The translations under genes were made by a program, and so were the position numbers. Shown piece by piece: positions 22,780-30,437 of a stretch of DNA of 42,993 bases. Source of the stretch: Candidatus Crickella caballi (lineage in GTDB: Bacteria > Bacillota > Clostridia > Peptostreptococcales > Anaerovoracaceae); contig JAGHUV010000038.1 in the NCBI GenBank assembly GCA_018064665.1, positions 1-42,993 on the forward strand, in the 5' to 3' direction. Every line of letters begins with the position of its first letter. Position 1 is the first letter of the stretch. The notes under the pieces were generated by a model. That model searched no databases and was not told where the DNA came from. It saw only the letters and a list, made by a program, of their open reading frames with translations.

Positions 22780-24047
22780 TTATTCTATAGTAATAAATTT
22801 GTATCCGCCTTCCTCTATGGCTTTTCTGATAATCTCTTCCTGAACATCCTTGCTGAATTCTACAACTGCAGCACCATCCGTGTGGCTTGGTGCAGCTGTT
22901 TCAATACCATCAATTGACTCCAGAGCATTTTTAACGTGCTTCTCGCACATAGGGCACATCATTCCTTCAATAATAATCTTCTTAGTCATTTCTTCTTTCT
23001 CCATATTCTTTATTGACTGTTCAGCAAATTCTTCAGCTATAGTTCTGATATCTTCTGTGCTGACTTCATTCTTGAGCTTTCTGTCTATGCCACCGGAATG
23101 GATCTTAAGCATATTGAGTCTCAACGCATTACTTACAACGCAGAAGCTCGCCAGGCTCATCGCCGCCGCCGCAATCATCGGGTCAAGCTCCCATCCGAGC
23201 CATCCTGCATAGCAGCCTGCGGCAAGCGGTATACACAGAGCGTTATAGAAAAACGCCCAGAAAAGATTCTCGTGAATGTTGCGCAAGGTTGCTCTGCTGA
23301 GTCTTATCGCAGCCGAGATGTCGCTTACTTTGCTGTTAACAAGAACAACATCTGCCGCATCTATCGCCACGTCCGTACCTGCACCTCTTCTATCGGTAAC
23401 TCTTTCTCTTCTCCATCTGCAACGACAACCGCACTCTGAGGTGCAAGCTTCATCAACGAACGCAAAGCATCAGTCGTCTTGCCCTTGCTGCGCGCTTCGA
23501 GCATTTTGCCGACAGTGATAAGTGCAAGTATCATTGCCGCCGAATCAAAGTACAGCTTCTCTGTATCATGCAATACGAATAGAGAATATACGCTCCACAT
23601 GAATGACGTGGATGAACCAAGCGCCACCAGTGTGTCCATATTGGCAGCACCATGCATAACGCTTTTGAATCCCGAGATGAAGAATCTTCTGTTGATTATC
23701 ATTACAACGGCAGCAAGAATCATCTTGATAACAGCCGGCTTGATGAACATAAGCGCTGCTGCCAGAACAATGCTGACAATCAATCTGTTACGCAGATTCC
23801 CGGTCTCATTGTCCGTCGATAAATACTCATAGGAAATCGAGCCGCTATCTGCCGAAGCTGCTCCATATCCGGCTGATACGACAGCGGCAATTATTTCCTG
23901 CTCACTCGCCGTGCCCTCAACATTCATACTGTTAGTCAGTAAACTTACGGCACAATATGTAACGCCAGGCAATTCAGAAACTGCTTTCTCGACTCTTGCC
24001 TGGCATGCTGCACATGACATTCCTGTTACATTAAACTTTTGTTCCAT
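22780..24047 (-). pseudogene. copA: Copper-translocating P1B ATPase with large internal deletion and frameshift
   Basis: The N-terminal part (24047-23361) encodes a heavy-metal domain (GMSCAACQ), transmembrane helices and the start of the actuator domain to PIEEVQV, then shifts frame and stops. The C-terminal part (to 22780) resumes at GAGTDVAIDAADVVLV, runs through the last helices and ends in a second metal-binding domain (GMMCPMCEKHV). The TGE loop, the DKTGT phosphorylation site, the ATP-binding domain and the CPC helix are all missing, roughly 400 codons. The two parts meet at 23376-23385, where GGTGCAGGTA fits both coding contexts, as expected for deletion between 10-bp direct repeats. 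It starts 3 bases after atpC. Neither fragment could pump metal. Confidence 0.9.
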
Positions 24048-24050
24048 TAA

Positions 24051-24476
24051 TTATCTTTTCTTCTTCGCTACAGCAATTCTGTTCATGGCTCTTGAGAGCT
24101 GTGCTCTTGCAGACAGATACTCCTGCTTTGACTTTTTCTGAAGCATAGCTTCCCTTGCTTCTGCTTCTGCCCTCTTGGCTCTTTCAATATCTATTTCCTC
24201 AGGGCTTTCGCAGGTATCCACCAGCAGAAGAACATCGTTATTCTCTATTCTGATGATTCCACCGGATACAGCTGCGTATTTACGCTCCTGTCCACTGCCT
24301 TTCTCGTTGCACATAACAAAATCGATCTCGCCCGGTACGACCGCCATTACGGTGTTGGCGTGATGAGCCATTACACCGACACGGCCTTCGGTAGTCGGCA
24401 GATTTATTATTGTGGCAGGACCTGAATAGAACGATCTGTTGCTTGCCATTATTTCAAGATTAAATGTGTTGCTCAT
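24051..24476 (-). CDS. atpC: F1 ATP synthase subunit epsilon
   Basis: The 141-residue epsilon subunit has the N-terminal beta-sandwich (STFNLEIM-like start, VGVMAHHANTV block about 30-40) that contacts gamma and the c-ring. A two-helix C-terminal domain (about 90-141, rich in Ala, Arg and Lys) can inhibit ATP hydrolysis. It is last of the seven atp genes and 15 bases from atpD. GGAGAG precedes the ATG. Length is normal. The broken copA begins 3 bases after its stop. Confidence 0.95.
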   Translation of the reverse strand: MSNTFNLEIMASNRSFYSGPATIINLPTTEGRVGVMAHHANTVMAVVPGEIDFVMCNEKGSGQERKYAAVSGGIIRIENNDVLLLVDTCESPEEIDIERAKRAEAEAREAMLQKKSKQEYLSARAQLSRAMNRIAVAKKKR

Positions 24477-24491
24477 AATAAATCTCTCCGG

Positions 24492-26832
<2,341 letters not shown>

Positions 26833-26854
<22 letters not shown>

Positions 26855-28575
26855 TTGCTCTCAAACTCTTTTGCTATATCTATTATTTCCTGTCTCTCAT
26901 CATCCTCAAGCTTGCCGGTCTTGTCTATTCTGCTGCAGATATCTGCATGCTCTTCCTCAAAATGCTTAATGATGTCATCGATAAAGCCGGTGATGTCATC
27001 AATAGGAACATTCTGCATTGTATGTGCAAGTGCCATAACAAGAGTGATTACCTGCTCATGCTGGCTCTTTGGATGATACTGCTTCTGTCTGAGCATTCTC
27101 ATGATGCCCTGACCGTAAACGAGCTGCGCCTTGGTCTGATCGTCAAGGTCGGAAGCGAACTGTGTGAACACCTCCATCTCACGATACTGTGCAAGGTCTA
27201 TACGCAAAGTACCGGATGCCTTCTTCATCGCTTTGGTCTGAGCTGCTCCACCAACTCGGGAAACAGAAAGTCCTACGTTGACCGCAGGTCTCTGACCCGA
27301 GAAGAACAGATCGGATTCAAGGAAAATCTGACCGTCTGTTATAGATATGATGTTAGTAGGAATGTACGCCGAAACGTCTCCTGCCTGAGTCTCAACTATA
27401 GGAAGTGCGGTAATAGATCCGCCGCCGAATTCATCGCTCATTCTTGCAGATCTTTCGAGCAGTCTTGAATGCAGATAGAATACGTCTCCCGGATATGCCT
27501 CACGTCCCGGTGAACGGTCGAGAAGCAGTGAGAGTGCACGATATGCTACCGCGTGCTTGGAAAGGTCATCATAAACGATAAGAACATCCTTGCCCTCGTT
27601 CATGAAATACTCTGCCATAGCGCAGCCTGAATAAGGCGCGATATACTGCAGCGGTGCAGAATCACTTGCACTTGCGCATACGATAATTGAATACTCGAGT
27701 GCACCGTGCTTTCTCAGTGTCTCCGCGATCTGAACAACTGAAGATGCCTTCTGTCCTATTGCTACGTAGATACAGATGCAGTCCTTACCCTTCTGGTTAA
27801 TGATAGTGTCCAGTGCAATTGCTGTCTTGCCTGTCTGACGGTCTCCGATGATTAGCTCTCTCTGACCTCTTCCGATCGGGAACATAGAGTCAATTGCGAG
27901 CAGTCCCGTCTCAAGCGGAGTGTTTACAGGCTGTCTCTGTATAATGCTTGGAGCCGGTCTTTCAATAGGATAATAATCTGTAGCCTTAACCGGGCCCTTG
28001 CCGTCAATAGGTACACCAAGAGCGTCGACAACACGACCGAGGAAGTCGTCACCCAGAGGAACACCTGCCACCTTTGCGGTTCTGTGTACTGCTGAGCCTT
28101 CAACTACTTCGCCGTCATCGTCGAACAGTATGCAGCCTATTTCATCTTCTCTGATATCCTGTACCATTCCTCTGATGCCGTCTGTGAACATCAGGATCTC
28201 TCCGTAGGTTGCGTTCTCCAGTCCTTTAACTGTCGCAATTCCGTCACCTACAGACAGCACTTCGCCGGTCTGCTGTGCCAGAGTCTCCGGAGTCCAGGAA
28301 GCAATAGTCTCCTTGAGCAGAGGAATAATGTTTCCGTTGGAAGCAGGAACATTAACGAGTGTCTCTCTGAGCTGCTGAAACCTTCCGCCTACGGACCAGT
28401 CGTAGAATTCGTTTCCTACCTCAAGTCTGAATCCGCCGGGAAACGCCTTTGACTCTTCCCACTCCAGTTCAATGTCCTTGCCATACTTTCCGGACAGGAA
28501 TTTTATAAATCTTTCTTTCTGCTGTTCGTTAGGAGCAGTCTGAGAATAAATTTTTGCCTTTAATAATTCGCTCAT
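26833..28575 (-). CDS. atpA: F1 ATP synthase alpha subunit with N-terminal delta C-terminal-like domain
   Basis: The product is 580 residues, about 75 more than normal alpha. From about residue 83 (IIPLLKETIASWTP) it is a standard alpha subunit with VLSVGDGIA, the P-loop GDRQTGKTAIALD and the Arg-finger region ISRVGGAAQTKAMK-like. Residues about 8-75 instead match the C-terminal domain of subunit delta (OSCP): NEQQKERFIKFLSGKYGK, PGGFRLEVGNEFYDWSVGGR, FQQLRETL. No separate atpH exists, as only 5 bases separate atpF from this ATG. The delta N-terminal helical domain, which normally binds the alpha N-terminus, is absent and appears replaced by covalent fusion. AAAGGGG precedes the ATG. Confidence 0.93.
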
Positions 28576-28580
28576 CTATA

Positions 28581-29075
28581 CTAGCCCCTTTCAGTTCTTT
28601 CAGCAGCGTCAAGGAACTGATCGAATGCATCTGAAGCAGACTGCTCAAGAGCAAGCTTCTCAGTTGCTTCAGTTACCATGTCCGAAATCTCCTTTTGAGC
28701 AGATGTAATAATCTTCTCCTTCTGTCTCTCAGCCTCTGCCTTGGCATCATTGAGTATCTGCTCTGCCTCGTCCCTGGCCTCCTGAATTCTCTGAGAAGTT
28801 ACCTTGTCTATATCTTCACGTGCTTTTTCTTTTTCAGCTCTGATTTCCTGATCAAGCTGAGAAATCCTGGCTTTATATTCGTCACGTTCCGTCTCGGATG
28901 CTTTAAGATTATCCTGAGCCTTCTGATCTATATCCTCATAATACTTTTCTCTCTTGGCAATGAAATCTTTTACCGGCTTGTAGAGAAGTATCCACAGAGC
29001 TCCGAAAAGTATTGTGAAGTTCAGAAGATGGAGCATGATCTGCTGCCAGTCTATATTCAATGGAACACCTGTCAT
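28581..29075 (-). CDS. atpF: Fo ATP synthase subunit b
   Basis: The 164-residue peripheral stalk subunit has an N-terminal membrane helix (IMLHLLNFTILFGALWILLY), then PVKDFIAKREKYYEDID, then a long charged coiled coil. The C-terminus (MVTEATEKLALEQSASDAFDQFL) is the part that normally contacts subunit delta; here the partner would be the delta-like domain on alpha. AGGAG precedes the ATG. Length is normal for b, so no delta sequence is fused here, unlike the mycobacterial b-delta fusion. Confidence 0.95.
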   Translation of the reverse strand: MTGVPLNIDWQQIMLHLLNFTILFGALWILLYKPVKDFIAKREKYYEDIDQKAQDNLKASETERDEYKARISQLDQEIRAEKEKAREDIDKVTSQRIQEARDEAEQILNDAKAEAERQKEKIITSAQKEISDMVTEATEKLALEQSASDAFDQFLDAAERTERG

Positions 29076-29093
29076 ATCATATACTCCTATCTG

Positions 29094-29483
29094 TTACAGT
29101 ACGAATATTATCAGTATTACTGCAAGCAGCGCGTATATGATCGCAGTCTCTATAAATACAAGACCGAGCATGAAGTTTGTTCTGATTTTACCCTCAGCCT
29201 CAGGCTGTCTTGCAATACCCTCTGATGCTCTGGCACCAGCTATTCCCATTCCGATGCCGCCGCCACCGGCTGCTATACCGATTGCAATACCTACACCGAT
29301 AGCCTTCATACCGATGGTATTATCAACAGTCTGCTCTTCCTGAACCTGCTCTACCGCCTGTCCATCGTCCTTTGCACCATCTGCTGCATCAGCAAAAGCA
29401 AATCCTACAGATGCAATTGAAAGAACTAATATGATAATCCCCAATACTGCTGCGATTCTCTTTAAATTAAGTCTGTTTGCCAT
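29094..29483 (-). CDS. atpE: Fo ATP synthase subunit c with N-terminal extension
   Basis: This is the rotor-ring subunit. The 129 residues are about 45 more than usual. Residues 1-32 look like a signal peptide or extra helix ([25 protein letters not shown]). About 25 mostly acidic residues follow, then a normal hairpin from about residue 58: glycine-rich helix, ARQPEAEGK loop, and a second helix with the ion-binding Glu in [11 protein letters not shown]. The long form is supported by AGGAGG 8 nt before its ATG; the internal Met has no such site. E-T...Y of the sodium motif is present, but Met replaces the Gln ligand of helix 1 (GIGMGIAG). Confidence 0.93.
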
Positions 29484-29512: not shown

Positions 29513-30388
29513 TTACGCTGCCTTTTTATCTGTTTGATCCTTTACTTTGTTCTTACGACCAGTCTTCTTTGCCTTCTTCTCCTTAGGAGGCGGTGGTGTA
29601 TCATCGGATACCTGACCGTAGAACAAGGACGTAAGCATTGTAAGTACGTATGCCTGTATTAATGCATGCAGCAGTGTGAACAGCACGCCTACGAAAACAG
29701 GCAGTACATAGCTGAGACTTGAATAATAGTATACAAGCTCAGTTACCAGTGCACCGGAAAGCAGCGCACCAAATAGTCGAAAGCTGAGTGATATAGGCAA
29801 CGAATACTCCTTGAGTGTTTTTCCTATACCTTTTAATCCGTTACCGGCAACTCCTCCGCTCATTATGAACAGATATGAAAGGCATCCCATCATAATCGCA
29901 CCGTTTATGTCAGACAATGGTGCAGGAAGTGATATGGATAAACCCTCTGTGGTTACCGCCTGAACTCCGAGGAGTTCGAATAGAGTTCCGGTAAAAATGT
30001 ATGCTCCGGCTGCAAAAATATATGCTCCAAGCACTCTGTTGATCTTCGAGCTGCCCTTTGCCATGTTGTCGAACAAGCTGACAACAGTCTCAAGAAACAT
30101 CTGCAATCTTCCCGGAACGATCTTGAACCTCGGAATAACGAACAGTCTGCATATCAGTGCAAACACGATCAGTATTCCGGATACAATCACTCCGGAAAGC
30201 AATCCCGGATTGACTGCTCTTCCCAAAAGCATGACCTTGTTGCTGTCGTGAAGAACCGCGTCACGCATAACCTCCTGTACGGTTTCGGTCTTGGGAACAT
30301 TCGAAGCTGTCAGGAAAGATGCTATCAGAAACACCAGAGCTATCACAGCGAAAATAATTATTGCCTTTCGCCTTTCCTTTTTAGTCAT
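29513..30388 (-). CDS. atpB: Fo ATP synthase subunit a
   Basis: This is the stationary ion-channel subunit, about 291 residues from the ATG at 30388; the GTG five codons earlier overlaps the AAAGGAAG site, so the ATG is preferred. Several membrane helices are evident. The essential Arg is in LSFRLFGALLSG, and the conserved last helix is LLHALIQAYVLTMLTSLFYG. The C-terminus carries an unusual run of prolines and lysines (PPPPKEKKAKKTGRKNK) of about 30 residues on the cytoplasmic side. It is first in the atp operon. No atpI is present upstream. Confidence 0.95.
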   Translation of the reverse strand: MTKKERRKAIIIFAVIALVFLIASFLTASNVPKTETVQEVMRDAVLHDSNKVMLLGRAVNPGLLSGVIVSGILIVFALICRLFVIPRFKIVPGRLQMFLETVVSLFDNMAKGSSKINRVLGAYIFAAGAYIFTGTLFELLGVQAVTTEGLSISLPAPLSDINGAIMMGCLSYLFIMSGGVAGNGLKGIGKTLKEYSLPISLSFRLFGALLSGALVTELVYYYSSLSYVLPVFVGVLFTLLHALIQAYVLTMLTSLFYGQVSDDTPPPPKEKKAKKTGRKNKVKDQTDKKAA

Positions 30389-30437
30389 TTTCTTCCTTTC
30401 CACTGTATTTTGAACAGTAATAATTAATTTTGCTTTG

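Follow-up and report, generated by a model that had tools for sequence, protein, structure and literature searches.

The F-type ATP synthase α subunit of Candidatus Crickella caballi carries the C-terminal half of a δ (OSCP) subunit, fused in frame to its N-terminus. The N-terminal half of δ is lost, no other δ was found in the genome, and the arrangement is conserved across a clade of relatives. We analyzed a stretch of 42,993 nucleotides (the window), on the minus strand of which the α gene (26833–28575) encodes 580 amino acids. About 80 extra N-terminal residues had been read as a δ C-terminal domain in an initial annotation, and a search with the Pfam profile PF00213 found this similarity, i.e., profile positions 103–172 of 172 correspond to α residues 5–73 (28357–28563, minus strand) with E 1.5e-8 and 35.4 bits (curated cut-off 22.3). 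The match in α is limited to these positions, and the δ N-domain was found nowhere else in the genome at E ≤ 10. NCBIfam δ models cover α residues 1–88 (best E 5.7e-9), solely with their C-terminal ends; all these matches stay below the full-length cut-offs, as expected for half a δ. A δ HMM that we built from 24 separate δ subunits of the host family matched with positions 111–179 of 181. The rest of the protein is an F-type α subunit, with 742.2 bits for TIGR00962 against a cut-off of 484.45. This match starts at residue 82, near which the α body begins. Alignments delimit a linker and α N-terminal helix at residues 74–103 (NIIPLLKETIASWTP in the window; 28267–28356, minus strand), where relatives are alike, followed by the α body proper, residues 104–580 and stop (26833–28266, minus strand; TIGR00962, PF02874, PF00006 and PF00306).

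Structure prediction agrees with the profile searches. In an AlphaFold2 model of residues 1–125, calculated with 27 aligned rows, block means reached 82–91 pLDDT over residues 1–60 and were poor beyond (mean 64.6). Foldseek comparison with the PDB returned ATP synthase entries at all of ranks 1–29, with δ/OSCP chains on top (best 6yny_G1 at 1.4e-4; Bacillus PS3 δ, 6n2y_I, at 1.8e-4) and an engineered δ–α fusion, 9jc1_I, at rank 12; unrelated folds were intermixed from rank 30 on. Residues 5–73 are hence predicted to fold like a δ C-domain, and we regard their identity as the C-terminal half of δ/OSCP, fused in frame to α, as confirmed. A model of full-length α was too weak for use (mean pLDDT 64.5). 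The motif GFRL......YDWSV.GRF.QL is invariant in the 27 rows, which is partly built in for its DWSV.GRF part, as the same motif had been used to gather the set. In seven rows found without the motif, only D and W of this stretch and single nearby residues are invariant.

The operon on the minus strand has the order a-c-b-α-γ-β-ε. It consists of atpB (a subunit, 296 aa, 29513–30403; PF00119, E 2.7e-17), atpE (c subunit, 129 aa including a long extension at the N-terminus, 29094–29483; PF00137 at residues 62–125), atpF (b subunit, 164 aa, 28581–29075; PF00430, E 2.3e-13), the fused α gene, atpG (γ, 25889–26854; PF00231, E 6.3e-86), atpD (β, 24492–25892; TIGR01039, 802.6 bits) and atpC (ε, 24051–24476; PF02823 and PF00401). 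Between atpF and atpA lie 5 bases (28576–28580), as noted initially. The fused domain would be the likely docking site of the b subunit. Among 52 non-redundant b subunits of the clade, conservation is 0.70 at residues 136–158 versus 0.51 at residues 61–120, and F154 and L155 are invariant; this C-terminal conservation is compatible with a possible docking on the fused domain.

Other parts of the locus have features of their own. The c subunit starts with about 55 extra residues that combine a signal-peptide-like segment and an acidic stretch, and extensions of a similar kind occur in clade relatives among those listed. The a subunit has FRLFGA where, e.g., L184 has FRLFGN and L051 FRLYGN; FRLFGA is common to the close clade relatives listed, and the window a subunit has an extra N-terminal hydrophobic stretch. 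Adjoining atpC, two overlapping frames (22780–24047) resemble opposite ends of a heavy-metal P-type ATPase. Each contains one HMA domain, and no match to a catalytic ATPase domain was obtained in between.

In textbook F-type enzymes, a single peripheral stalk and a single a subunit are present, and the size of the c-ring sets the H+/ATP ratio. The host genome, 94.26% complete with 1.449 Mb in 42 contigs, gave seven ATP-synt_ab matches at E ≤ 0.001. They comprise the window α and β, a pair on contig C16 (597 and 467 aa) that we interpret as an A/V-type ATPase, a 417-aa protein with a score of 94 bits, and two matches below the cut-off. One F-type α and one F-type β were thus found. Moreover, the 34 codons of the window linker before the α core contain no ATG, GTG or TTG. 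Since a single F-type α gene was found and the linker offers no start codon, each F1 (α3β3) would carry three δ-like docking domains, a count that the initial annotation had likewise given. The linker contains an ATG in 36 of the 67 fused loci, a set to which the window belongs. Ribosome-site pairing at these ATGs is weaker overall, with a median of −3.7 (best −11.3) versus −9.9 at the fused start; an internal α start is conceivable in some of these relatives.

The initial annotation had also supposed that covalent fusion replaces the δ N-domain. The N-domain is indeed gone; more precisely, the covalent bond takes over the holding of the C-domain on α. Its further assumption of one b stalk per enzyme is unsupported, as the equivalent engineered fusion of Bacillus PS3, in which δ residues 105–178 were joined to α, had zero to three stalks in cryo-EM and about two a subunits on average by gel, with a maximum of three stalks and three a subunits per enzyme (PMC12229609; PDB 9jc1). 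The δ N-domain lies on the threefold axis and is argued there to restrict the enzyme to one stalk. In the fusion enzyme, gel analysis gave 2.2-fold more a and 1.8-fold more b, and H+/ATP was 5.8 compared with 3.0 (PMC12229609). Cryo-EM showed 0, 1, 2 and 3 stalks in 15, 51, 26 and 8% of particles, i.e., a mean of 1.26; this is less than the gel and H+/ATP values imply, and the authors suspect losses during grid preparation (PMC12229609). Chain 9jc1_I aligns with window α residues 6–558. Because of this alignment and the same architecture, more than one stalk is a reasonable expectation for the natural enzyme, and by analogy the window enzyme most likely has three docking sites and is able to hold more than one stalk.

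We therefore favor, as rather probable, a natural δΔN-α F-type ATP synthase with three stalk-docking domains per F1, in which more than one b2-a unit is possible, H+/ATP is raised and ATP can be synthesized at low proton-motive force. With the δ C-domain fused to α and the stalk-limiting N-domain lost, b2 dimers would dock canonically on the fused domains, several b2-a units could then assemble on one F1 and c-ring, and H+/ATP would rise in proportion to the number of a subunits. The host, in which RnfC was matched over its cut-off and which probably ferments, would thereby make ATP at low proton-motive force; by analogy with the PS3 fusion, its enzyme may use an unusually weak membrane gradient. 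Several points count against this proposal. Multi-stalk assembly would need a and b to be made in excess over α, most PS3 fusion particles on grids had no stalk or one, and ATP-driven pumping by the PS3 fusion enzyme was lower (PMC12229609). Furthermore, with the putative A/V-type ATPase pair in the host, its F-type enzyme might run in either direction and may serve another purpose.

The main rival is a single working stalk, which we consider possible but on balance unlikely. All three α subunits would carry the domain, yet one b2-a unit would assemble, either for steric reasons at the c-ring or from limited supply of b and a, and two domains would be idle or cap the crown. This agrees with the single-stalk particles being the largest class in the PS3 fusion (PMC12229609), and with a and b being single genes of the same operon as α. 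However, the PS3 authors report that their maps with two and three stalks reveal no significant structural constraint, and they hold the lost N-domain to be the limiter (PMC12229609). In addition, the numbers of chains in PDB entries for Chloroflexus aurantiacus suggest that a natural enzyme there has two stalks and two a subunits (see below).

Alternatively, α might be processed after translation, by a cut that leaves one attached copy to act as a short δ. In favor of this, the stretch just after the fused domain is variable, but the next helix (majority NIIPL.KET..WTP) is largely kept in the 27 rows, and we regard this reading as very improbable.

Even less credit is due to a separate δ that was overlooked, next to which the α domain would be an accessory. 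The host genome, assembled in 42 contigs, reaches 94% completeness, and a δ too divergent for the PF00213 profile would have escaped our search. Nevertheless, the fused α was the sole OSCP match in the host genome at E ≤ 10, and the window operon contains neither atpH nor a gap roomy enough for a further gene. We looked for OSCP in 16 of the 17 fused genus genomes with a completeness of 90% or more, with E limits of 10, 0.01 or 1 depending on the search. Each gave one match, except for one genome (G394) with a second, weak one at E 0.354; for seven of the 16, the match was taken as the fused one from its E-value and the genus search. In the 15 genomes other than that of the host, no second match passed the cut-off or reached E ≤ 0.01. 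The missing atpH of the initial annotation is thereby upheld for operon and genome, with no full-length copy found elsewhere, and the lack of a separate atpH, in the host as in the 15 further genomes, together with the in-frame C-domain at the α N-terminus and the lost N-domain, places the window enzyme among natural δΔN-α fusions. The refuting result named at the outset, a full-length atpH in another place combined with a lack of OSCP similarity in α residues 1–80, was contradicted in both parts.

An assembly or annotation artefact, as might be feared for a window from a fragmented genome, is refuted by the fusion being present in 36 of 47 genus genomes and by one stop-free frame over domain and α in 67 of 67 loci from named genomes. 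The same holds for 30 of 30 genus loci that we fetched, a set that includes the window's own locus and partly overlaps with the 67. One stop inside the frame occurs in the genus-search rows of three genomes (G389, G380 and G373) and in a second copy in G375.

A survey of relatives, as had been proposed at the outset, found the fusion in the genus and beyond, from Clostridia to Mycoplasmatota. In 35 of the 36 fused genus genomes the match begins at residue 6 or before and in one (G395) at residue 22; fused relatives in the genus are 73–79% identical. The other 11 genus genomes comprise three with an α of the separate-δ kind (G082, G360 and G361; loci L051, L204 and L205), one broken by a run of N (G376, L203) and seven without a match. 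A 927-aa α frame in L203 was rejected as a fusion, as it results from the run of N. For most genomes of the genus, the fused form is hence the α that was found. Outside the genus, at least 22 of 398 genomes of a phylum sample (own genome included) have the fusion in a stop-free frame over both parts, plus one (G590) at a contig edge. In a class sample, searched with a profile of the window clade at E ≤ 1e-24, it was found in 14 of 391 genomes, again including the host. All surveys are samples, of 119, 297, 398, 346 and 391 genomes. The scan of named genomes with the DWSV.GRF motif gave 67 fused loci, some of which share a genome and some of which apparently lie on contigs that the genus search had also covered. 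They stem from ruminant-gut 'Mogibacterium sp.', Clostridiales MAGs, Candidatus Gallimonas, Avimonoglobus, a Lachnospiraceae MAG, and Anaeroplasmataceae and Acholeplasmatales MAGs.

In a quick tree of 76 α bodies, 42 of them labelled as fused, the window belongs to a clade (25 rows, SH-aLRT 99) that consists of fused α subunits throughout and reaches Clostridia and Mycoplasmatota. Ordinary α subunits of its own genus and family, accompanied by separate δ subunits, are placed elsewhere in the tree, and the window operon was therefore probably acquired horizontally. Other families make up a second fused group of 12 rows (support 90). Omp85 was present in 11 of 11 genomes tested here, i.e., ten of the 12 of this group and one (G511) on a long branch outside it, and was found in none of nine tested genomes of the window clade and family f43 (G000, G667, G539, G619, G793, G418, G462, G565 and G590). 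Separate origins of the fusion in the window clade, the Omp85-positive group and family f43 are not supported. The fusion label needs four changes on the first tree, of which the starred branches force two, and three changes on a tree without rows L197, L040 and L043; with these rows left out, a single clade of the three groups, which were named after the tree was seen, was not rejected (p-AU 0.504).

Relatives contain further forms of the fusion. In two genomes of different genera, G107 (L206:7484–9556, 690 aa) and G805 (L221:5354–7435, 693 aa), a full-length δ with N- and C-domain is fused to α. No other OSCP match at E ≤ 1 was found in either genome (91% and 80% complete, respectively), and three complete δ subunits per F1 would be expected for these enzymes. 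To judge from these frames, fusion and N-domain loss are not always linked. G793, with an ordinary operon elsewhere in its genome, has a 691-aa frame with a degenerate δ N-domain (L182:5271–7346) and lies within the window clade, on the same branch as a row with the C-domain alone; its fusion is a possible evolutionary intermediate. In G105, a 750-aa frame (L040:2961–5213, minus strand) on one 8,880-base contig joins a membrane helix and stalk that resemble b (PF00430, 28.4 bits, cut-off 28), a δ C-domain and α, with a separate b gene just upstream. No other F-type α was found in this genome (79% complete), and no second b-δ-α frame appeared among the matches listed from 346 genomes of the family. 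If the frame is real, every α would supply its own membrane-anchored stalk.

Two near-complete genomes, G095 (L045:5882–6364) and G011 (L046:5666–6148), have separate 160-aa δ frames whose OSCP match covers the C-terminal half, positions 88–172 (in L045 also 85–172). Two others, G037 (L047) and G112 (L048), contain N-ATPase-like operons with a 252-aa b subunit that has a δ-like C-terminal domain.

A more far-reaching reading, which we put forward tentatively and would not yet bet on, describes a horizontally spread enzyme of gut and rumen Clostridia and Mycoplasmatota that normally has two or three stalks with as many a subunits, so that H+/ATP would be doubled or tripled. It would have arisen from a separate δ via full-length δ-α to δ C-domain-α and, in one genome, to b-δ-α, where the protein chain itself would fix the number of stalks. 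Natural α-δ fusions that lack the part thought to enforce one stalk and one a subunit offer many enzymes for direct measurement of stalk number and H+/ATP, and the set of fusion forms provides material for asking how such a change evolved.

In the mycobacterial b-δ fusion (7jg5_d), a δ domain likewise resides on another stator subunit; in contrast to the window α, it is joined to b, and the δ N-domain region aligns there too. This fusion is present in one copy per enzyme. The window domain also weakly matches positions 187–243/246 of the N-ATPase b model TIGR03321 (E 0.0018); there, however, the δ-like domain sits on b. The window enzyme was rejected as an N-ATPase, as α (608 versus 750.5) and β (599.7 versus 752) stay below the NCBIfam 'alternate' cut-offs.

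Chloroflexus aurantiacus (PDB 9itj and related entries) suggests a second natural route to a two-stalk, two-a enzyme. The chain counts, i.e., 36 a, 72 b and 180 c in 18 entries and 12 δ and 18 α in six entries, correspond to two a, four b and ten c per entry on average, and two δ with three α in the six. Like the proposed window enzyme, it occurs naturally and apparently has more than one stalk, although its δ is a separate 157-residue chain, unfused to α. A literature search, thin in subscription papers and preprints, found no paper on this structure.

The closest counterpart is the engineered PS3 enzyme, with a δ C-domain on the α N-terminus, no δ N-domain and no separate δ. It differs in its artificial junction and in an ε without C-domain, and its stalks, H+/ATP and structure were measured, whereas the window enzyme is described from its genes. 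The δ C-domain-α kind as such is already in print: the Discussion of PMC12229609 names natural fusions, UniProt G4Q3K6 and A0A1I2C5T3 and the Acidaminococcus fermentans FoF1, a δ-α fusion without N-domain for which it infers more than one stalk. We liken these three to the window enzyme by that paper's description rather than by sequence. No organism of the window clade is named in that Discussion, and among the matches listed by a search covering few subscription papers and preprints it was, by title and abstract, the only report of natural α-δ fusions or multi-stalk enzymes. Tested members of the window clade are Omp85-negative, and a separate fused group is Omp85-positive. Acidaminococcus, by comparison, is a diderm Negativicute. 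To the kind already described, the present analysis adds the spread of the clade, full-length δ-α fusions in two genera and one candidate b-δ-α triple fusion.
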